This document shows positions 6,085 through 29,335 of a stretch of DNA of 33,350 nucleotides, in pieces. The position numbers and the translations under genes are program-made. Below the pieces are notes generated by a model. That model ran no database searches and had not been told where the DNA came from. It worked only from the letters and a program-made list of their open reading frames with translations. The first letter of the stretch is position 1, and each line of letters opens with the position of its first letter. Location of the stretch: contig JANWYO010000217.1 of assembly GCA_025055215.1 (NCBI GenBank), positions 1-33,350 of the forward strand, read 5' to 3'. The stretch comes from Gemmataceae bacterium (GTDB lineage: Bacteria > Planctomycetota > Planctomycetia > Gemmatales > Gemmataceae).

Positions 6085-9000
6085 TCAATCCGCGGCCCAG
6101 ATCTTGACCGTGCCGTCAGCCGAACCCGATGCCAACCAGCGGCCGTTGGGGGCGAACGTCAGTGCGTGGACGCTGCCTCGGTGGCCTCGAAGCGTGGCCC
6201 TCTCCTGTCCGGTTTGGGCATCCCAGAGCTTGATCGTCCAGTCATCGCCGCCGGTCGCTAGGGTCTTGCCGTCCGGGGAGATGGCCAGGGCCTTGAGCCG
6301 CTTGCGATGTCCATGCAGGATCGCGCACGCCTTCCCGGTGGCTACATCCCAGATGCGGAGGGTTTCGTCGTCACTGACGGAGACGAGCCGACTGCCATCG
6401 CGCGTGAAGGCGATGGCGGTGACGGCGCCCCCGTGGCCTTCAAGGAGCGCGCGCTCCCGGCCGGCATCCACGTCCCAAAGCCTGATCTTCTCGTCGTCGC
6501 TGGCGGAGGCCAGGATCGCCGCCGTCGGCGAGAAGGCCAGGGCCACCACCGACCCCTCGTGACCGGTCAATTTCAGCACCTCACGCCCCGTGGCCATGTC
6601 CCAGAGCCTGATGGTCTGGTCGTTGCCCGCTGACGCAAGGGTCAAGCCATCCGAGGCGAACGTCACGGCCCGAACAGCCTCGCCGCCGCCCACTGTCCGA
6701 ATAAGTTGGCGGTCGGCGAAGTTCCCGAGGGACCAGAGGGACAGGCGACCATGCTCTTGAGCAACGGCGAGGATCCGACTCTTGGGGTCAAACGCCAAGG
6801 CATTGGCGGCCAGCGGTTCCTGCGGCAAAGTCCCCGCCGCGGTACCGTCGGGCAGTTTTACGAAACGAACGCGCCGCTTCTCCTCAGCGATGGCCAGCGT
6901 CATACTGTCGGGCGCGAAGATGAGGGTGGCACCAGGCGTTGTGGCAGCCGGTATGGTCAGCGACTCCTGCTGGGTTGAGACATCCCAAACCCTCAGATTG
7001 CCAGGCCGTTCGGTTTCGGTACTGCCGGAGATCAGGTTCCGGCCGTCTGGGGTAAAGGCGAGGGTCAGGACGGGGGCCACGTGGCCGCGGAGGACCGAGC
7101 GTTCTTCGCCGGTCAGTGGCTGCCACAACCGAATGGTGCGGTCGGCCCCGGCAGAGGCGACTGTCTTCCCATCGGGAGAAAAGGCGACGGCATAGACGAA
7201 ACTCAGATGGCCGGTGCACTCCTCGCGTGGCCTGCGCTGGTGTACGTCCCAGAGTCGCACGGAGCGATCGAGGCTGCCCGAGACGATCGAGCGGCCATCG
7301 GGCGAGAAAGCGACGGACGTGACGCCGTCGTGGTGCTGGTGGAACTTGGCCCATTCGGTGCCTTGGGCCACCTTCCATAGCCGGAGCGTGCAGTCGAGGC
7401 TGGCGGAGACAAGCAGCGAGCCCTCGGGATTGAAGGCGACGGCGCCAATGGCATCGTTGTGGCCTTGCCACACAGCGCGAAGCTTCCGCTCGCCAATATC
7501 CCACAGTCGCACCCGCCCGTCGCTGCCGCCGCTGGCGAGGGTCTTGCCATCGGGAGCGAAGGCGACGGCGCGCACCTGCTTTTGGCCATCCTGAAGGACG
7601 GCTGACTGCTGCCGCTTACCCACGTCCCACAGCCGGATGGTGCCGTCCTCGCCGGCGGAGGCGAGCGTTGTACCGTCGGGGGCGAAGGCCACGGCCAAAA
7701 CCATGTCCGTGTGCCCGCGTAACTCCCCCAGGGGCTCGCCACGGGAGAGGCCCCATAAGAAGACGGTTCCGTCCCAGCTGGCCGAGGCGAGGACGCGGCG
7801 TTTGGGATTGACGGCCACCGAACTGACGGAATCGCGATGACCGATCAAGATCCGGCGTTCGCGGGCGCAGAGTCGGTGGAGGAAGCCCCAGGTAAAGTCG
7901 CGTAACTCAGGTGGGCACCGGTCCTGGTCGCGGAGCAATTCCAACCCCTCGGCGGGGTCGCGCAGCCACAGGCCCGCCGCCTTCGCCAGCTGCAAGGCGT
8001 AGAGGCTGCGGCGGGAATGCTCCAGCTGCTCTCGGGCGATGCGCTCTTGGCGCTTAGCCTCTTCCTCGTGTTGCCGTGCAATCCTCTGTTGCCGCAGGGC
8101 CTCGAGCTTTTGCCGCTCCGCTTCCTCGCGCTGCTGCTGGGCCTCGAAAGCCCGTTGCGATTCATGGCGGGTGTACAGCAAGATGCCAACCAACATCCCC
8201 GCCGCGGCCAGGTGGAGCAGGATCACCAGCGCCGCCGCTGCCGGCCGACGCCACGCCCACTTGAGGAAGCGCTCCACCCAGCCCACCGGCCGGGCCTTGA
8301 TCGGCTCGCCGCGAAGAAACGCGGCCAGATCGTCGGCCAAGGCTTCGGCAGAGGAATAGCGTTTGCGCGGCTCCTTTTGCAAGCATTTCAGGCAAATGGT
8401 TTCCAGGTCGCGCGGCACCTTGGAATGGAGCCGGGCCGGCGGCACCGGCTCCTCGGCGATGGCCTGCATCATGGTGTCCAGCGGCGTCTCGCCGCGGAAC
8501 GGAGGCCGACCCGTCAGCAATTCATACAAAATCGCTCCCAAGGCATAGACGTCGGCCGCCGGACCCGCGCGGTTGCCGCGCCCGACGGCTTGTTCCGGTG
8601 CGATATAACTCGGCGTGCCGATGATCGCCCCCGTTTTCGTGTGGCCGGTGTCTTCCTCCAGCCGTCGCGCCAGACCGAAATCGGTGATTTTCGGGATGCA
8701 GTCGTCGAGCGAGGGGGGCATCGGCTCGGGCGGCATCTCGTCTTCGTCCAGCTCCAGGGGCGGCGCCTGTTCCCAGCTCAAGAGGATGTTTGCCGGCTTG
8801 AGGTCGCGGTGGACGATCCCGCGCTGATGGGCAAAGTGCATGGCCCGGGCCAGGATTTCCACCAGCCGCGCCGCCTGCCGCGCGGGCACCGGTGAACCCC
8901 GCAGGTACTGGGCCAGGCTCCCCCCGCCGACGAATTCCAGCGAGAAGTACGGTCGGCCATCCTGCTCGCCGACCTCATAAATCTGCACAATGTTGGGGTG

Positions 9001-9405
9001 GTGCAGCGCCGCGGCGGCCTCGGCCTCCCGACGGAAGCGAAGCAGCGCAGCCGGCGAGGCATGGTCGCCAGCCAGGATCATCTTCAAGGCCACGACCCGG
9101 TTCAAACTGATCTGCCGGGCCTTGTAAACTACCCCCATGCCGCCCCGGCCTAGTTCATCGAGGATCTCGTAATCCGGAATCACCGGCACGTTTCCCGGAC
9201 CCGCGGCCGAGGCATCCCCTCCGCTGGCGGAATCGGACGCTTCACCGGCGGCCCGGCCGGACCAGACCGTGAAGGCTTCCTCCTCGGGATCCCAGTCCCC
9301 GCTGGGGGGCGAGCCGCACTCCGGGCAGGCGGCGGTCAGGGTGACGTCGGTGCCGGCCGGTACAGGCCACTGGTGTCCGTGCGGACAGCGATACACTCGG
9401 GTCAT
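6085..9405 (-). CDS. Membrane Ser/Thr protein kinase with 14 WD40 repeats
   Basis: 1106 residues. Order: zinc-ribbon-like N-terminus (CPHGH near 7 and CPEC near 27), kinase domain (about 79-370) with [11 protein letters not shown] lysine Lys108, HRDLKPAN (Asp201, Asn206), DFG (Asp242) and APE (269-271), one transmembrane helix (about 388-411), a Gln/Glu/Arg-rich coiled coil (about 417-470), then 14 WD40 units to the C-terminus. All kinase residues are intact, so it should phosphorylate Ser/Thr from the cytoplasmic side, with the propellers on the other side of the membrane. Between HRDLKPAN and DFG there is an acidic, proline-rich insert about 25 residues longer than usual. ATG 9405 is chosen because the zinc-ribbon begins there and GGAG is close upstream; the 70 residues before it look non-coding. 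It lies 125 bp downstream of the ExbD genes. This architecture is typical of Planctomycetes. Confidence 0.93.
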
Positions 9406-9530: not shown

Positions 9531-10154
9531 TCATCCCGGCGTCGGCACGAGCAGGTAGACTTTCTCGAACCCCGCCCCCTTGGCGGCATCTTGAATCGTC
9601 ACCACCGTGCCCCAATCGACTCCCGTGGCCACGATCAACAGATGCGTCTTGCGCTGCTCTCGCAGATGCCGGCGCAGCGCCGGCACCAGGTCCTTTTCCT
9701 CGACCGGCTGGCCTTCCACCAGGATGACGGATCGGCCATTTTGCCCTTTCGCCTCCACCCGGACGACGAAGCGCTCAACTTCCTCCCGGGTCTTGACCGC
9801 CACGCCTGCTGAGACTGTTTCGTCGGTGGTGCTGGGCATGTCGAGCACCTTACGCATGGTGTCGTAGGTGGTGGTCAGAATGAAGAAGATGAGAAGGACC
9901 AGGGCCACGTCGATCAACGGATTCATGTCCAGCCGGGTCTCGTCGCCGTGGACCTTGGGGGGCGGAGGCTCGAAGTCAGCGGCCAGGTCCGCCAATGCGG
10001 GGTGGTTCTCGATCGCCTGCCAGCGGTCGTCGGTGGGGCCCATGACTTCATCGGTCGGCTCCCACAAACCGTCGCGCAGCCCCTCGGCCACTTGGGGTAA
10101 GGTCAGTCCCTCGATGGCCTGGGGCGAACCTTCGTGTCGGACCTTCCAGCTCAT
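9531..10154 (-). CDS. ExbD/TolR-family protein with GYF_2-like N-terminus (1)
   Basis: 207 residues. The C-terminal part is ExbD/TolR: a single transmembrane helix [19 protein letters not shown] (about 78-97) with the proton-coupling Asp82, then a periplasmic domain ending in [24 protein letters not shown]. Unusually, about 60 residues precede the helix and begin WKVRHEG, with [11 protein letters not shown] and W45, the spacing of a GYF_2 domain, followed by a Pro-rich linker. In ExbD topology this extension is cytoplasmic, so it could bind a cytosolic partner. Start ATG 10154 overlaps the TGA of the second ExbD gene (ATGA). With ExbB it would form a proton-driven inner-membrane motor. Its energised outer partner is not in the window. 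Confidence 0.9.
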
Positions 10155-10858
10155 GGCTGCTTTTCCGATACCTCACCGTAGATCCGGCTGATCCCCAGCG
10201 GCTTGCGCCGCTGCAAGTGGACGGTCATCCGACGGACGGTCTCAAAGGGCAGCTGGCGATGGGCGGCGACACGAACCTCCACTTGGCCGCGATGCTGCCG
10301 CAGACGGGCGTCCAGCCGTTGCAGCACCTGCTCCTCGCTCAGGCCGGTGTCTTCGGCGTCTGGCGGGGCCTGCCCTTGGCCGATGGAGTAGACCGGCTGG
10401 CCGGCCGCGTCCCGGTCAATACCGATCCAGATCATCTCGGGGTCGGCTTGGACAAACGAGAACTCAGTTTCAGGCGTGTCGATGCCCGCCCCGGTGATGA
10501 CCACGGTACTGGTCATCATGAAAAAGATGAGGAGAACCAGGCTGATGTCGATGAGGGGAATCATGTCCACGTCTTCGTCGTCGTCTTCCCGGGGGCGATA
10601 GGCGAACTCGAATGCCACCCGTTCCAGCGCCTCCGCCTGATCGTCCGAGCGCCGCGGGTCGGAGCGGGGAAGATACGCCGCCAGCATCGGGTCGTCGGCC
10701 AGGCGAACCCACTCGCCCTGGCCGGCCGGCCGGCAGCAGTCGTCGTCCAGGAGCCGGCCCTGCTGGATCCAGTCGGCCACCACGGTGAAAGGAACGCGGC
10801 GATAGACCGTGTTCAATTCGACAACCCAGACGTCAAGCAGGCGTCGGGGATCCGACAT
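10151..10858 (-). CDS. ExbD/TolR-family protein with GYF_2-like N-terminus (2)
   Basis: 235 residues, a divergent paralogue of its downstream neighbour. A cytoplasmic N-terminal domain (about residues 9-64, VWVVELN...VVADWIQQGRLL...GEWVRL) has the tryptophan spacing of GYF_2; then a strongly acidic linker (EDDDEDVD) leads to the ExbD helix MIPLIDISLVLLIFFMMTST with the key Asp104, and a periplasmic domain follows. The start at 10858 is chosen because GGAAGGA lies 7 nt upstream, rather than the GTG at 10864. It is 108 bp downstream of exbB and overlaps the next exbD by 4 nt. Two ExbD subunits of unlike sequence suggest a heteromeric ring inside ExbB. The partner transported or energised is unknown. 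Confidence 0.88.
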   Translation of the reverse strand: MSDPRRLLDVWVVELNTVYRRVPFTVVADWIQQGRLLDDDCCRPAGQGEWVRLADDPMLAAYLPRSDPRRSDDQAEALERVAFEFAYRPREDDDEDVDMIPLIDISLVLLIFFMMTSTVVITGAGIDTPETEFSFVQADPEMIWIGIDRDAAGQPVYSIGQGQAPPDAEDTGLSEEQVLQRLDARLRQHRGQVEVRVAAHRQLPFETVRRMTVHLQRRKPLGISRIYGEVSEKQP

Positions 10859-10938
10859 GATCACGTCCTTCCCGCTCCCGGGCGACGGCGCCCGCCGGGC
10901 ACGGATGGGGCGGGGCCGGGGGGGTTCCGATGGTCCAT

Positions 10939-10962
10939 CCGCGGCGGCTGGTCCCGCCGCGG
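10939..10962 (-). terminator. GC hairpin just after the exbB stop
   Basis: Perfect 9-bp inverted repeat CCGCGGCGG / CCGCCGCGG (10939-10947 and 10954-10962) with a 6-nt loop, 4 nt downstream of the exbB stop and inside the exbB-exbD operon gap. It may be an attenuator, an mRNA processing or stability element, or a partial terminator that sets ExbB above ExbD. Confidence 0.45.
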
Positions 10963-10966
10963 GTGG

Positions 10967-11635
10967 TCAGCGCCGCGCCGCGGTGGCCTCCGGGGCTCTC
11001 GCGGGTCCAGCCGTCTTGGCGCTTTGCACCAGCACCAGCAGCTTCTGGGCGGCGCTCTTCATCTTAACCTCAAACTTGCTGATCCAGTCCTTGAAAAGGA
11101 CATGGGCAAAGACGAGTGGGATCGCTGTCACCAAGCCCAGGGCCGTGGCGAACAATGCCAGGCCGATGGCGCCGGCGTGGCTGGTGACTCCCTTGGCATC
11201 GGTCGCTTTCTGGATGGCATTGAACGTGTTGATCATGCTGATGACGGTGCCCAGCAGCCCGACCATGGTGGCGATCTTGGCGATTGCCAGGATCGGGGCA
11301 AGGAGAAAGTTCAGGTCAGGAAGGATCTCCAATTCGATGACATTGGCCATGGCGCGGCGCATGGCCGCCAATCCTTGGCGGGAGGTTTCCAGCCCCGCCA
11401 CATACAGGCGCCGGGGAATGACGCCCGGCTGGGTGCGGCAGAAACGAAGGGCGGCCTCGATTCCCTCCTTCTCCAGCTTTTCCTGGAACGCCGGGAGGAA
11501 GCGGTTCATGTCGGTCGTGGCGCCCAAATTGAGGAGGATACGCCACAGTACCAGCATGATCGCGACGAACGACATGAAGAACATCGGAATGGCGAAGTAC
11601 CATTCCGTGGTCACGAACTTGATGAACGCCGACAT
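10967..11635 (-). CDS. ExbB/TolQ/MotA-type proton channel protein
   Basis: 222 residues. An N-terminal transmembrane helix (about 10-30, WYFAIPMFFMSFVAIMLVLW) is followed by a cytoplasmic segment and two more helices in LLAPILAIAKIATMVGLLGTVISMINTF and GAIGLALFATALGLVTAIPLVFAHVLF. The MVGLLGTV and ALFATALGLVTAIP patterns are the ExbB/TolQ hallmarks. It would form the pentameric channel that surrounds ExbD. ATG 11635 is used (GGGGAAG upstream); the longer frame adds 15 odd residues. The gene is followed 108 bp later by two exbD genes and preceded 73 bp upstream by the EF-G-like gene. The Ala-rich C-terminus (GPARAPEATAARR) is a disordered tail. Confidence 0.92.
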   Translation of the reverse strand: MSAFIKFVTTEWYFAIPMFFMSFVAIMLVLWRILLNLGATTDMNRFLPAFQEKLEKEGIEAALRFCRTQPGVIPRRLYVAGLETSRQGLAAMRRAMANVIELEILPDLNFLLAPILAIAKIATMVGLLGTVISMINTFNAIQKATDAKGVTSHAGAIGLALFATALGLVTAIPLVFAHVLFKDWISKFEVKMKSAAQKLLVLVQSAKTAGPARAPEATAARR

Positions 11636-11708: not shown

Positions 11709-13856
11709 TCAATCCTCCTCTTCCACAGCAACCTTCGCCTTGCTGATGATCTGCTGCTGGATGTTGCCGGGCACCACGTCGTAGTGGCTGAATTCCATCG
11801 TATACGATCCCTGGCCCTGGGTGATACTGTCGAGCGTAGCTTTGTAGCGCGTCACCTCAGCCAGTGGGACCTTGGCCACGATCACCGCCAGGTCACCCGG
11901 CAGGCTGTCCTGATTTTCGATGCGGCCTCTCTTGGTATTCAAGTCACCGAGGATCGCCCCCGTGTATTTCGAGGGTACCGTCACTTCCAGGGTGACGATC
12001 GGTTCCAGGATCGCCGGGCGAGCCGTGAGGATGGCCTTCTTAAAGGCCATGCGCCCGGCAGTCTTGAAGGCCACTTCCTTGCTGTCCACTGGATGACTCT
12101 TGCCGAAATAGACCTCCACGCCGATGTTCTGCATGCGATAGCCCGCCACGGCGCCCTGCTCCATCACCTCCATGCACCCCTTGTAGACGGCCGGCATGAA
12201 CTGGTTCGGAATGCTCCCGCCGACGATGCAATCCACGAAGGCGAAGTTGTACTCCGGCTCGTAACGGCAGTATTCCTCGCGGATCTCGGGGAACCGCTCC
12301 TTGTTCATGAAGCGGGCGCGGCATTCCTCCTCGGTGGTGATGTCGCTGGGAAGCGGATACACCCGCAGGTGGACCTCGCCGAACTGCCCCGCGCCGCCGG
12401 TCTGCTTCTTGTGACGGTAATCGGCAGCGCCTTCGGCCGCGATCGTCTCCCGGTATGGGATCTTCGGCTCCTTGGTGATGATTTCCAGATCGTAGCGGCG
12501 CTTGAGCCGTTGCTGCACGACGTCCAGGTGCAGTTGGCTCATGCCGTTGATGACTAATTCCTTGGTCTGGGGATCGCGGGTGATTTTGAACGTGGGATCT
12601 TCGTCGGCGATCTTCTGAAGGCTGCCGGAAATCTTCTGTTCGTCGCCCCGGGACTTCGGCTCGACCGCCAGCCCGAACATCGGCGTCGGAAAGACGGGCC
12701 GAGGCAGCCGAGGGGCGTTGGCACTGGTCGCCACGGTGTCGCCAATCGCCAAGTCTTCGACCTTCGCGACGGCGATGATGTCGCCGGCAATCGCCTCCGG
12801 GATGGACTTCTGGCCTTTGCCCTGGACGAGGAGCAGGCCGCCGGTCCGCGAGGATTTGCCGGTCCGGAGGTTGACCAGCGGCTGGTCGCTGGTCAGCCGG
12901 CCGGAAACAATGCGGATGAAACTCAGGTTGCCGACGAACTTGTCGGACAGGGCCTTGAACACCAGGCCGACCAGCTCGCCCGATTCGCTCGGCTCGATGG
13001 TCACTTCCTGGGCCTTGTCGCCCGTGCCCTTGGTGCCGGTCCATCGTCGGCCCTGGCTCGGCGAGGGCGCATATCGGACGATAGCGTCGAGCAGCTCCGC
13101 GATGCCGATGTCCTTTTTCGCCGCCGTGCAGAAGATCGGGATGACGGTCCCGGAGGCGACGGCCTTCGGGATCGCTGCCGTCAACTCCTCGGCCGAGACC
13201 GTGCCCTCCATCAGGTATTTCTCCATCAGCGCATCGTCGCTTTCGACGATGGCGTCGATCAGCTTAGAGCGAGCCGCCGCCAAGTCCACGGGGCAACCGG
13301 CGGGCACTTGTGCCGGCGGTTGCAGCACGCTGAGCACGCGGCTGAATGCCGGCCCGACGGCATCAGGCACATTGAACAGGACGCAATTCTTCCCGAAGCT
13401 CTCCTGAATTTGGGCCACCAGTTCTGGGAACTTGATGTTGTCCGCATCGAGTTTGTTGATGACCAGCAGGCGCGCCAAGCCGCGGCGGCCCGCCTCGGCA
13501 AACATCCGCCGCGCGTTGACCTCAATCCCGTTGGGAGCGGACAGCACCACGATGGCGGCTTCCACCGCTTCCAAGGCGCCCAAGGCCGCTCCCACAAAGT
13601 CGGCGTAGCCGGGTGTGTCCAGCAAGTGGACCATCTTGCCTTGACTTTCCAGGTGCAGGACACTGCTGTCGATGGAGATCCGTCGCTTTTTCTCTTCCTC
13701 GTCGAAATCGGAGACGCTCGTCCCTTCGTCCACGCTGCCGCGGCGATCGACCGCCCCCGCCTTGGCCAGAAGGGCGTCGGCCAGGGATGTCTTGCCCGCG
13801 GCCCCGTGGCCGACCAGGGCCAGGTTGCGAATGTCGTCTACCTTGTAGTTCGCCAT
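11709..13856 (-). CDS. EF-G-like translational GTPase paralogue
   Basis: 715 residues with EF-G domain order. G1 is GHGAAGKT (16-23), G3 is DTPGYAD (80-86), G4 is NKLD (134-137); domain IV carries GGAGQFGEV and a long C-terminus (RGRIENQD...). It differs from canonical EF-G: the switch motif is KKRRISI instead of RGITI, and the catalytic His after DTPG is Tyr84. These differences match the second EF-G-like family (Thermus TTHA1498 / mycobacterial FusA2 type), whose role in translation is not settled. I therefore do not call it fusA. It is encoded 33 bp downstream of hisA and 73 bp before exbB, and is likely cotranscribed with them. Confidence 0.88.
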   Translation of the reverse strand: MANYKVDDIRNLALVGHGAAGKTSLADALLAKAGAVDRRGSVDEGTSVSDFDEEEKKRRISIDSSVLHLESQGKMVHLLDTPGYADFVGAALGALEAVEAAIVVLSAPNGIEVNARRMFAEAGRRGLARLLVINKLDADNIKFPELVAQIQESFGKNCVLFNVPDAVGPAFSRVLSVLQPPAQVPAGCPVDLAAARSKLIDAIVESDDALMEKYLMEGTVSAEELTAAIPKAVASGTVIPIFCTAAKKDIGIAELLDAIVRYAPSPSQGRRWTGTKGTGDKAQEVTIEPSESGELVGLVFKALSDKFVGNLSFIRIVSGRLTSDQPLVNLRTGKSSRTGGLLLVQGKGQKSIPEAIAGDIIAVAKVEDLAIGDTVATSANAPRLPRPVFPTPMFGLAVEPKSRGDEQKISGSLQKIADEDPTFKITRDPQTKELVINGMSQLHLDVVQQRLKRRYDLEIITKEPKIPYRETIAAEGAADYRHKKQTGGAGQFGEVHLRVYPLPSDITTEEECRARFMNKERFPEIREEYCRYEPEYNFAFVDCIVGGSIPNQFMPAVYKGCMEVMEQGAVAGYRMQNIGVEVYFGKSHPVDSKEVAFKTAGRMAFKKAILTARPAILEPIVTLEVTVPSKYTGAILGDLNTKRGRIENQDSLPGDLAVIVAKVPLAEVTRYKATLDSITQGQGSYTMEFSHYDVVPGNIQQQIISKAKVAVEEED

Positions 13857-13889
13857 GTCGTCTACCTCGAAGAACCGCCGGCAACCGAC

Positions 13890-14627
13890 TCAGGTTCCCG
13901 GCGAAGGCTGCCTCCGCGTCACCGCCCGCAGGGCTTCCGGCAGGGCGATGGTTCCTTCATAAAGGGCGCGGCCGATGATGCATCCCGCCAGCCCCAGATC
14001 GGCCAGCCGGCAAACGTCGTCCAGCGTGCTGATGCCGCCCGAAGCGATGAGGGGCCGCGTGACCGACTCCCGGAGGACTGCGTAGGCGGGGAAGTTCGGC
14101 CCGTTCATCATGCCATCGCGGCTGATGTCCGTATAGACTAAGGCGGCCAACGGCCAATCGCCGCAGCGGCGGGCCAAGCCCACGGCGGACAACTCCGTGG
14201 TGGTCTGCCAGCCGTCGAGGGCAACTCGGCCATCGCGGGCGTCGATCGCCAAGACCACCCGCCCTGGGTGCTGATGCGCCATGGCTTCCAACCACGCCGG
14301 CTCGCGGCAGGCCCGGGTCCCGAGGACCACCCGCGCCACCCCCCAACCTAACACCTCGGCAATGTCCGCCGCCGTCCGCAGCCCGCCCCCCAGCTGGCAC
14401 GGGACAGCAACCTCGGCCACGATCCGCCGGATCGTTGACCCGTTGATCGGCCTCCCTTCCTTGGCCCCGTCTAAATCCACCAGGTGCAGGGCCTCCGCTC
14501 CCTGCTCCACCCACTGACGGGCCACGGCGACCGGATCGGTGCCGAACACCGTCTCCTGCGCGTAATCACCCTGCCGCAGCCGCACGCAGCGACCACTCCG
14601 TATGTCAATGGCCGGCAGGATCAGCAC
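13890..14627 (-). CDS. hisA: 1-(5-phosphoribosyl)-5-[(5-phosphoribosylamino)methylideneamino]imidazole-4-carboxamide isomerase
   Basis: 245-residue TIM barrel catalysing the Amadori rearrangement in histidine biosynthesis. Seen: PAIDIRSGRCVRLRQGD with the general base Asp8, the phosphate loop QLGGGLRT, the catalytic YTDISRDGM, and the second phosphate site IASGGIST followed by GRALYEG. The length is standard. It begins with GTG at 14627, a weak AAGG lying 9 nt upstream. It is the first gene of the run hisA, EF-G-like, exbB, exbD, exbD. Other his genes are not in the window. A plausible -10 hexamer lies about 30 bp upstream. Confidence 0.95.
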   Translation of the reverse strand: MLILPAIDIRSGRCVRLRQGDYAQETVFGTDPVAVARQWVEQGAEALHLVDLDGAKEGRPINGSTIRRIVAEVAVPCQLGGGLRTAADIAEVLGWGVARVVLGTRACREPAWLEAMAHQHPGRVVLAIDARDGRVALDGWQTTTELSAVGLARRCGDWPLAALVYTDISRDGMMNGPNFPAYAVLRESVTRPLIASGGISTLDDVCRLADLGLAGCIIGRALYEGTIALPEALRAVTRRQPSPGT

Positions 14628-26481: not shown

Positions 26482-26504
26482 GCCCCCGGTCAGGGGCGGC
26501 TCAC
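26478..26504. terminator. Convergent hairpin that includes both stop codons
   Basis: GTGAGCC (26478-26484) pairs with GGCTCAC (26498-26504), and inner CCC pairs with GGG with a bulged C, giving about 10 bp. The TGA of the Cys-rich gene (26479-26481) and the TGA of the Hsp70-like gene (26501-26503 on the other strand) lie in opposite arms. A bidirectional terminator is likely. Confidence 0.5.
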
Positions 26505-29335
26505 GACGTTGACGCCTCGTCGCCGCGCGACCGCAGCCGCAGACCGACCGGCAGGGCATCGCCGAACATCTGGCTCTGCTCCTCGGTCTCCCACTCTGTG
26601 ACCTCCTCCACCATTCGCAGCCAATGCTCCGGGAGCGCTTGGCCGCGCAAGACGCTCAAGACGCCTTCCCGATGACGCTCGTCCACGTCGAGGGCGCGCT
26701 GGCCGCTCCGCCGCGCCAACTGGGCCAGGCAAAAGGCCCAGGCCAGCCGTTCGCTGTCGTGCCCCGGTTGGAAGGGCAAGAGGGCATCGATCCATCCCTC
26801 GACCACCTGCGGGTGCACCACCGCGTTGAGCGGGCCATACAGCAGCACCCGTGCTCCCAATCGCGTCAGCGCCCAAAAGGCATAAGTCGGAACCGGGCTG
26901 CGCCGCAGCGGCTTGAGCAGGGCCTGGCCCAAAGCCTCCTTGGTCTTGACGTCGAGCCGTTCCAGGCTGGCGGCGGCCCGCCACATTTCCGCTAATTCGT
27001 TCGCCAGGGGCTTGACGCCGCCTTTGCCCTTGCCCGTGAGCAGGGCGGGGCGCAGCCGGTCGGCCAAGGCGGTCTGGAGGGGGGCGGGAAGGCCACCGGC
27101 CACCCGCCGCCACATGATCCAGTAATCGGCCCCGCCCTCCGGCTGCCGCGTGGTCTGCGGGGAGCGGGGCGGGGCGTGCATCATCTTCCACAAGGTTTCG
27201 ATCCGATACGGGTCGAGCGGATCGCCGAACCCGGGGCGGAGGCTCCAGCCGACGAGGTGATACCACCGGCTCAGGTGGGCGGGGGACTTGCGCCGCTGCT
27301 CGGCCTGTTCGCCGAGGAATTCCCACAAGCGGCGGCACAGGCCGGTGGGCCAGTCTTGTCGCGGCGCTCCCAGGGCGGCTTCCAGCGCCTTGGTCAGCTC
27401 CTGGGGAGCGGGGCCGCTGTTGGAGTCGAAAGTCGCCCGGATCAAGGCGCCGGCTTGCTGGACCTGCTCTTCCGGCCAGACGTCGGTGACACCCGGCCGG
27501 GCCGGCGGCCCGGCGGGTGAGTCGGTTTCCTCGGGGAGGACATCGCGGACATTGAACTCCAGCCGCCAGCGGTTCTGTCCCTCTTTGGCGACGCACCACA
27601 GTTCCAGGGTGCCGATGTCGGTGCACCGGGCGGCGAGGGTGACGGGGACATGTTTGGTGCCGCTGCGTTTGCCGCCGCGCAGGACGGTGTGCAACGGCGG
27701 CAGGCGGCGTAACTGGTCGGGGGCCACGGTGAGGAGGTCGCCGGCGCGGTCGTCGCCACGGACCGTGGAGGTGTACAGCGGAAAGGCGACCGGCTGGCCC
27801 AACGTTAGCTCCAGCTCCGGCTGGTCGATGGTCAGCTCCTGGCCCTCTTCCAGGTGCTGCGGGAGGACACAGAGGACCGCGAGCGGCGTTTGGCCGTCTG
27901 CCGCCGGCGCCGCCGGCGGCGGCCCCTGCGCCCCCACCGCGATGTAGTACGACCGCGCCAGCCCACCCCCGATGCGTCGGCCGCCGCTGTGCCGCAGCCA
28001 GCCGAAATATGCCGCTCCCCAGGCCACCGCCAGATCGAGCGACGGATTGGTGAGGACCAGAGGCCGCCAAGGTCGCTGCCCGGTGTCATACCAGTGGTGC
28101 ACCACCTCCAGCAGCCGCGCCCGCAAGGCCGCCGCCTGAAAGACCCCGCCATTGAAGAGCACCGCATCGGGTGGCGGGCCGTCGCTCCCGAGGTGGCGGC
28201 GCAGAAACAGCGCCAGGTGCCGGCTGATGGCCGGGTCGGCAACATACGGCAGGCCCATCTCGTGCAGGCCGGTCCGCGGCCCGCGGATCGGCTCGGCTTC
28301 GCGCGGCACCAGGGGAAAAAAACCGTCGAACAAAAGTTGCCGCACCTCCGCCCCAGTCAGGGTGGCGTGCTGCGTGCCGCCGACCACCTGCCGACCTCGA
28401 CCCACGACCGTCACCGTGAGGCTGGCCGACGGCTCGGCGGCCAGCAGCGTCTCCTTGGCCGAGCGACACGCCTGCGTCAGCAAGCCATACTGTACGGCGT
28501 CGAGCCGACCAGCCCCGGGCAGCTTCGTCTCCACGAACTTTGCCAGGGCCAAGTCCATGTTGTCGCCGCCGAGCAACAGATGGTCGCCCACCGCCTGCCG
28601 GACGAAACCCAGGTCGCCTTCCCGCTCCACCGCTTGGATCAGGCCGAAGTCGCTGGTGCCGCCACCCACATCGACCACCAGGCACCGCGCCCCCGGTTTG
28701 AGGGCCTGAAGCTCGGCCGGCGGGTGCGTCGCCAGCCAGCAGTAGAACGCCGCCTGGGGCTCCTCCAAGAGCGTCAACCGTTCGATGCCCGCTTGCCGGG
28801 CGGCTTCGACCGTCAGGTTCCGGGCCACGTCATCGAAGGAAGCCGGCACCGTCAGCACCACCGGCTGCTCTTCCAGCCGGTCGCCAGGGTGGGCATAATT
28901 CCAACTCTCCACCAAGTGGCGCAGGTAGCGGGCCGAGGCTTCGACGGGCGAAATCCGCGGCACGTCCGCCGGAGCGCTCCAGGGCAATAACGGTGCGGAG
29001 CGATCGACACCGGCATGGCACAGCCACGACTTGGCCGACGTCACCAATCGACCGGGCACCTTGGCGCCGTGCTGGCGGGCGAATTCGCCGACCGCATACC
29101 GCCGGGCCGGGTCCCACGGGAGCGCCGTCGCCCCGGCGGGCAGGTCGTACGCCCCAGGGAGATACAGGAACGATGGCAGCAACGGCCTCGTCCCCACTTC
29201 CGCCGGGGCCACCAGCTGGAGCACGGGAAACGTCTCGATTCCCGACCGACCCGCTTCCGGAGGGCGGTGCAGGTCGATGTACGCCAGCGCGCTGTTGGTC
29301 GTTCCCAGGTCGATGCCGATGAGATAGCGAGGCAT
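26501..29335 (-). CDS. Hsp70-family protein with large C-terminal extension (DUF3731-type)
   Basis: 944 residues, much longer than DnaK (about 640). The N-terminal ATPase is recognisable by LIGIDLGTTNSALAYID, VVDVGGGTSDFG (phosphate 2) and the adenosine motif DAVLFNGGVFQAAALR. After about residue 480 the sequence no longer resembles DnaK's substrate-binding domain in full; beta-type segments are followed by a helical, Trp-rich region (for example FLGEQAEQRRKSPAHLSRWYHLVGWSLRPGF) that I associate with DUF3731. It probably has an Hsp70-like nucleotide-switch function with an unusual client domain. No J-protein, GrpE or second Hsp70 is adjacent. It is divergent from gmhB across 145 bp. Confidence 0.9.
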   Translation of the reverse strand: MPRYLIGIDLGTTNSALAYIDLHRPPEAGRSGIETFPVLQLVAPAEVGTRPLLPSFLYLPGAYDLPAGATALPWDPARRYAVGEFARQHGAKVPGRLVTSAKSWLCHAGVDRSAPLLPWSAPADVPRISPVEASARYLRHLVESWNYAHPGDRLEEQPVVLTVPASFDDVARNLTVEAARQAGIERLTLLEEPQAAFYCWLATHPPAELQALKPGARCLVVDVGGGTSDFGLIQAVEREGDLGFVRQAVGDHLLLGGDNMDLALAKFVETKLPGAGRLDAVQYGLLTQACRSAKETLLAAEPSASLTVTVVGRGRQVVGGTQHATLTGAEVRQLLFDGFFPLVPREAEPIRGPRTGLHEMGLPYVADPAISRHLALFLRRHLGSDGPPPDAVLFNGGVFQAAALRARLLEVVHHWYDTGQRPWRPLVLTNPSLDLAVAWGAAYFGWLRHSGGRRIGGGLARSYYIAVGAQGPPPAAPAADGQTPLAVLCVLPQHLEEGQELTIDQPELELTLGQPVAFPLYTSTVRGDDRAGDLLTVAPDQLRRLPPLHTVLRGGKRSGTKHVPVTLAARCTDIGTLELWCVAKEGQNRWRLEFNVRDVLPEETDSPAGPPARPGVTDVWPEEQVQQAGALIRATFDSNSGPAPQELTKALEAALGAPRQDWPTGLCRRLWEFLGEQAEQRRKSPAHLSRWYHLVGWSLRPGFGDPLDPYRIETLWKMMHAPPRSPQTTRQPEGGADYWIMWRRVAGGLPAPLQTALADRLRPALLTGKGKGGVKPLANELAEMWRAAASLERLDVKTKEALGQALLKPLRRSPVPTYAFWALTRLGARVLLYGPLNAVVHPQVVEGWIDALLPFQPGHDSERLAWAFCLAQLARRSGQRALDVDERHREGVLSVLRGQALPEHWLRMVEEVTEWETEEQSQMFGDALPVGLRLRSRGDEASTS

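Follow-up and report, generated by a model that had tools for sequence, protein, structure and literature searches.

The window analysed here, a stretch of 33,350 nucleotides from a Gemmataceae bacterium, corresponds to contig C52 in a genome of 4.58 Mb with 95.9% completeness. Its minus strand carries, in this order, a hisA-like gene, an EF-G-like GTPase, ExbB, ExbD1, ExbD2 and a kinase-TM-WD40 protein. The features are given below by window position, with the evidence for each in brackets.

13890-14627, minus: hisA-like gene (named by eye)
11709-13856, minus: EF-G-like GTPase, upstream (Pfam EF-G domains)
10967-11635, minus: ExbB/TolQ-like channel subunit, 222 aa (PF01618, channel residues)
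10151-10858, minus: ExbD1, 235 aa, with a predicted N-terminal GYF-fold domain (PF02472)
10661-10846, minus: predicted GYF-fold domain of ExbD1, about residues 5-66 (hhalign, model, fold matches)
10496-10552, minus: transmembrane helix of ExbD1 with Asp104 (hydropathy, alignment)
9531-10154, minus: ExbD2, 207 aa, with a predicted N-terminal GYF-fold domain (PF02472)
9981-10154, minus: predicted GYF-fold domain of ExbD2, about residues 1-58 (hhalign, model, fold matches)
9876-9932, minus: transmembrane helix of ExbD2 with Asp82 (hydropathy, alignment)
6085-9405, minus: kinase-TM-WD40 protein of 1106 aa, outside the conserved set (PF00069, WD40)

Elsewhere in the window, a 944-residue ORF at 26501-29335 on the minus strand appears Hsp70-like by eye and is longer than an ordinary DnaK.

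An earlier note had placed an ExbB and two different ExbDs at 9531-11635, and the three genes are indeed found there on the minus strand. ExbB scored 71.4 bits with PF01618 (cut-off 22.9), and ExbD1 and ExbD2 scored 51.2 and 62.9 bits with PF02472 (cut-off 25.4), which assigns all three proteins to their families. The ExbD1 and ExbD2 genes share a 4-nt overlap. Matches to the NCBIfam models for ExbB, ExbD, TolQ and TolR remained far below the equivalog cut-offs, which places the set among the divergent members of the superfamily, outside both canonical Ton and canonical Tol.

The residues expected of a proton-driven motor are largely retained. T130, T164 and P173 of the window ExbB are invariant and align with the ring residues Thr148 and Thr181 and with Pro190 of E. 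coli ExbB (numbering from the available part of PMC12215075), and the counterpart of E. coli Pro141 is a threonine, i.e., this proline is not kept. The transmembrane aspartates that the earlier note had pointed out, Asp104 in ExbD1 and Asp82 in ExbD2, are each invariant in 53-row alignments of relatives. Hydropathy puts the start of the hydrophobic helix at residue 103 for ExbD1 and at residue 75 for ExbD2. In E. coli TolR and ExbD the corresponding aspartate is found at position 23-25 (PMC12215075 and PMC8599685, available parts), whereas it is at position 104 or 82 in the window proteins. Among relatives of ExbD2, no plasmid-borne copies were found.

Both ExbDs thus possess some 60 additional residues ahead of the ExbD helix, which had been described as GYF_2-like. 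Neither window protein matched Pfam GYF_2 (PF14237) even at E <= 1, let alone at the gathering score. Among relatives, GYF_2 was the second most frequent Pfam match, though a weak one, reaching sub-threshold scores in 2 of 53 ExbD1 and 6 of 53 ExbD2 sequences (best E 0.0015). Profile-profile comparison with hhalign used a profile of 31 GYF_2 domains taken from the window's order; it gave probabilities of 91.9% for the ExbD1 domain and 92.0% for the ExbD2 domain, as compared to about 0.2% for the ExbD halves and to maxima of 11.6% and 5.6% for the two domains with 60 column-shuffled GYF_2 profiles. The two N-terminal domains matched each other at 96.0%, a column-shuffled ExbD2 domain gave at most 6.4% with the ExbD1 domain, and by this profile criterion the two domains are mutually related.

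Searching the PDB with both N-terminal sequence profiles returned weak unrelated rows and no GYF match, so a fold search was needed. AlphaFold models built from 52-row alignments showed folded domains with mean pLDDT values of 83.7 (ExbD1) and 87.8 (ExbD2). For both models, the top PDB ranks in Foldseek were nearly all GYF domains (GIGYF1/2, Smy2, GltJ and others), and the non-GYF rows among the leading matches were subunits of the chloroplast TOC-TIC complex. VIA gave Z scores against GYF domains of 4.8-6.6 for ExbD2 and 5.1-6.1 for ExbD1, with one further GYF domain at 3.6 and 4.2; unrelated rows began at Z 3.2 for ExbD2 and 2.3 for ExbD1. From the hhalign comparison, the shuffled controls, the confident models and the fold searches we conclude that both ExbDs carry a predicted GYF-fold domain and that they are not GYF_2 members by Pfam's threshold; the description as GYF_2-like therefore holds for the fold and fails at the family cut-off. 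In the ExbD1 domain, D9, P23, D40 and W50 are kept in 52 of 52 rows. One of the nearest solved structures is the GYF domain of GltJ (7z3c), with 24% identity to the ExbD1 domain. The zinc ribbon and GYF domain of GltJ reportedly act as an MglA-controlled switch. A literature search, thin on subscription papers, found no description of ExbDs with a GYF domain or a zinc ribbon.

The gene order proved to be well conserved. Of the 95 family genomes, 67 have an ExbD1 match with E <= 4.3e-15; three further, weak matches fell on ordinary ExbDs and were dropped. Among 67 ExbD1 loci, drawn from 66 genomes other than the window's, ExbD1 is followed by ExbD2 in 63 and preceded by ExbB in 60; several of the missing ExbB or ExbD2 neighbours fall at contig ends, and in L095, L100 and L102 ExbD1 lacks an adjacent ExbD2. 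The ExbB-ExbD1-ExbD2 order is therefore conserved in the family, and the kinase lies outside the conserved unit. Upstream, an EF-G match was present in 26 of 67 family loci and hisA in 24 of 67. We rejected both as parts of the motor and take them as old synteny. The frequent upstream neighbour of ExbB is an EF-G-like translation-factor paralogue, located in the window together with the hisA-like gene at 11709-14627.

The 1106-residue membrane kinase announced by the earlier note does exist. It follows ExbD2 directly on the minus strand after a gap of 125 nt, and hydropathy indicates one transmembrane segment at residues 392-410. Its proposed role as operon partner did not survive comparison: among the 54 family loci whose downstream sequence spans 3 kb or more, a same-strand kinase about 1.3 kb downstream was found in two, both of one genus, and the window genome contains 49 kinase matches. 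L095 is a third locus with a kinase match, absent from this length-filtered count. The kinase was accordingly rejected as a conserved partner, and its link to the operon is most likely local.

Clustering of the ORFs neighbouring the operon identified a different protein, a TonB-like transducer, which adjoins ExbD2 in convergent orientation in 25 of 67 loci. Its short cytoplasmic tail has a conserved motif (F-W-x-x-Y-S/N...E-x-P-x-S). The tail is followed by a single membrane helix, and a linker rich in Gly and Asp leads to a C-terminal domain that is also conserved and comprises about 135 residues. This domain had no Pfam or NCBIfam match, and the transducer profile (alignment A7) found only low-complexity Gly-rich and other chance-like matches in the PDB. 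The possibility that it is a divergent vWA domain was rejected, with no Pfam vWA match among 22 members and an hhalign probability of 0.3%. In the membrane helix, [SAT]-x3-His occurs in 37 of 45 family transducers (strict S-x3-His in 19 of 45) and is missing in the other 8 as well as in all 10 class-mate copies scanned. The Ser and His of the TonB/TolA helix contact ExbB/TolQ, according to the available part of PMC12215075.

The transducer follows the motor genes through the family. In 95 genomes, ExbD1 and transducer occur together in 66, ExbD1 alone in 1, the transducer alone in 8 and neither in 20 (Fisher p 3e-13, with shared ancestry ignored). Genus g28 has two genomes with both and five with neither, and in G063 ExbD2 is split from ExbB-ExbD1 yet lies about 0.75 kb from the transducer. 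The window genome has one copy (G000:C195:9799-10836), which contains S-x3-His and is on a different contig, i.e., not linked to the operon. Phylum-wide, 19 of 294 genomes gave a match: the window's own, 17 of the class and one weak match outside it. The conserved partner of the motor is thus the TonB-like transducer, adjoining the operon or co-occurring with it, and the pairing of motor and transducer is well supported.

The cytoplasmic tail of the transducer contains proline in many family copies. Of 55 transducers, 22 showed two consecutive prolines (PP) ahead of the tail motif in a strict scan, which missed the window genome's own VPPEKTIWQRYS. Tails without PP occur in genera g36 and g26 (L057, L058, L062, L064, L065, L073). 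In the g36 loci L057, L058, L062 and L064, the tail without the proline motif coincides with a strongly diverged ExbD2 N-terminal domain, with 14-17% identity to that of the window. By eye, the gene ahead of the transducer and on its strand is DnaK-like in L087 (5906-7864), L091 (5956-7974), L229 (6216-8168) and L233 (6105-8042), and such a gene is also found where the transducer is unlinked to ExbB-ExbD.

Outside the family, the comparison covered ten class-mate loci and seven loci of other families, both sets taken from best matches and hence non-random (best ExbD2 matches for the class-mates). In all ten class-mate loci ExbB comes first, the next gene encodes an ExbD without recognisable extra domain, and the ExbD after it bears a CxxC...CxxC zinc ribbon at its N-terminus; A6 aligns nine of these, and L191 is the tenth. 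A transducer homologue directly precedes ExbB in eight of the ten, and L184 and L188 have no linked transducer. After the zinc-ribbon ExbD, all ten loci encode a protein of about 1,150-1,230 aa. In the three that were scanned (L183, L187 and L190), each has a PQQ-type propeller and two have an FHA domain. The FHA-TM-PQQ-propeller proteins of about 1,200 aa (L183 8330-11995, L187 8361-12023 and equivalents) resemble the kinase-TM-WD40 protein of the window in their layout of cytoplasmic domain, transmembrane segment and propeller. In the window's family, the FHA-propeller profile (A8) gave many weak, mostly FHA-only matches; its membrane-to-middle part was matched by ORFs of about 1,060-1,440 aa in several relatives, with none for the window genome among the matches listed.

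In more distant families, an ExbD with a GYF-like N-terminus follows ExbB, as a rule as the sole ExbD, and the ExbD of L182 passes the Pfam GYF_2 cut-off (29.1 vs 25.8 bits). In L176, L178 and L182, a vWA transducer with Ser-x3-His precedes ExbB; the vWA domain was called by Pfam for L178 and from a MIDAS-type motif by eye for L176 and L182. These vWA-ExbB-ExbD(GYF) loci belong to two other planctomycete families. The ExbD1-domain profile matched in 7 of 392 phylum genomes, including the window's, and three of the matches lie at an ExbD N-terminus outside the family. A canonical TonB-ExbB-ExbD locus is likewise encoded by the window genome; it lies on contig C154 and holds the only TonB_C match of the genome, and no linked TonB with TonB_C was found at the ExbB-ExbD1-ExbD2 operon. 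This makes the latter a second system.

Together, the results point with a probability of roughly 60% to a 5:2 motor of the Ton/Tol type that pulls a TonB-like transducer and has exchangeable adaptors on the cytoplasmic side of its axle, by which it is docked or braked. An ExbB pentamer would surround an ExbD axle, probably an ExbD1-ExbD2 heterodimer, and proton flow past Asp104 and Asp82 would produce movement. The motor would pull the transducer at the edge of the pentamer and so may carry force outward. By extrapolation from the available part of PMC12215075, the GYF domains would lie below the cytoplasmic opening of the pentamer, where an adaptor could dock a partner from the cytoplasm, perhaps the tail of the transducer itself, and in this way position, engage or brake the motor. 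Candidate ligands are this tail or, by analogy with Myxococcus gliding, a cytoplasmic switch protein. That a zinc ribbon replaces GYF in the class-mates suggests an adaptor role. A tentative extension, possible though with the odds against it, is a widespread planctomycete motor class under control from inside the cell: GYF or zinc-ribbon adaptors on the rotating axle would bind a switch protein or the tail of the transducer and so serve as clutch or brake. Equally tentative is the part of this reading by which the tail motif changes with the adaptor, PPxExFWxxYS going with GYF and PVMRVTxYDxVSS with the zinc ribbon.

Adaptor docking has to be weighed against a simpler role in which the GYF domains merely stabilise or fold the axle, for example by plugging the cytoplasmic cavity of the ExbB pentamer, with no other ligand. 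The N-terminal stretch of TolR occupies the cytoplasmic cavity of TolQ (PMC12215075, available part), and the linker between the ExbD2 domain and its helix is short, about 15 residues, both of which agree with such a plug. However, the domain is strongly conserved, with a mean column identity of 51%, and is exchanged for an unrelated zinc ribbon in class-mates. Both fit adaptor docking better, and we consider the plug unlikely. The motor might instead belong to a Glt/Agl-like machine for motility or surface transport. There, the GYF or zinc-ribbon adaptor would be bound by a cytoplasmic switch (e.g., a small GTPase), which would bring the motor to a track or a structure at the surface. Gliding is not known in the window's family, which counts against this reading; we consider it improbable, despite several parallels. 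AglRQS of M. xanthus likewise has one ExbB and two ExbDs (PMC3169522, PMC4488436), GltJ and AglR are MglA effectors (PMC12288465), and GltG has an FHA domain (PMC3169522), all from the available parts of these sources; class-mate operons also have an FHA protein, and the GltJ GYF structure is close to the ExbD1 domain (7z3c, 24% identity). On the other hand, AglQ and AglS leave no room for an N-terminal domain, with the ExbD match beginning at residues 15 and 28.

Phosphorylation of the GYF-ExbD motor by the membrane kinase, giving a kinase-controlled complex, is the least probable of these readings and highly doubtful. The position of the kinase gene, directly behind ExbD2 on the same strand with 125 nt between them, would suit this role, and the FHA-TM-propeller protein encoded behind the second ExbD in class-mates makes phospho-signalling near such motors plausible. 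But a same-strand kinase about 1.3 kb downstream occurs in only 2 of 54 family loci, the window genome has 49 kinase matches, and no FHA-propeller gene linked to the operon was found in the window's family. Of the energised complex with scaffold domains and phospho-control that the earlier note had envisaged, the predicted GYF-fold N-termini and the conserved order are retained and the kinase is lost. The adaptor-bearing motor with its transducer would be of wider interest. The axles of known Ton and Tol motors have almost no cytoplasmic part and hence no built-in control point inside the cell, which folded, conserved and swappable axle adaptors would provide. Adaptor domains would also make the positioning and switching of 5:2 motors testable by domain deletion. 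Furthermore, a transducer family without known relatives is added, and the ordinary TonB set of planctomycetes, whose envelope biology is poorly understood, is joined by a second energised machine in the envelope.

Several described systems share part of this gene content. The tonB-exbB-exbD1-exbD2 operon of Sphingobium SYK-6, with homologues in Xanthomonas, also has one exbB and two exbD genes; unlike the window set it is linked to tonB and has a role in nutrient uptake, and the available part of its description mentions no GYF domain (PMC8599685). AglRQS, the gliding motor of Myxococcus xanthus, combines one ExbB-like and two ExbD-like proteins, a likeness in gene content; the early start of the ExbD match in AglQ and AglS indicates that they have no cytoplasmic domain, unlike the window ExbDs (PMC3169522, available part). 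In PVC bacteria, systems with tolQ, paired unlike tolR genes and three-domain vWA force transducers with a Ser-His transmembrane helix have been described (PMC12204202, available part). A tolQ-like gene and an unlike tolR-like pair are common to these and to the window set, the planctomycete transducer likewise has three domains and a Ser-His helix, and the vWA transducers of L176, L178 and L182 match those of PMC12204202, as far as its available part describes them. The transducer of the window's family shows no vWA relation (hhalign 0.3%) and so falls outside these systems, for which the same text mentions no cytoplasmic ExbD domain. With TonB-ExbB-ExbD and TolA-TolQ-TolR, the window set has in common the ExbB/TolQ and ExbD/TolR domains, the proton Asp, the channel Thr residues and a single-TM transducer, often with Ser-x3-His. 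It differs from these motors in the C-terminal domain of the planctomycete transducer, which belongs to no Pfam or NCBIfam family, and in having two ExbDs, each with a predicted GYF fold on its cytoplasmic end.
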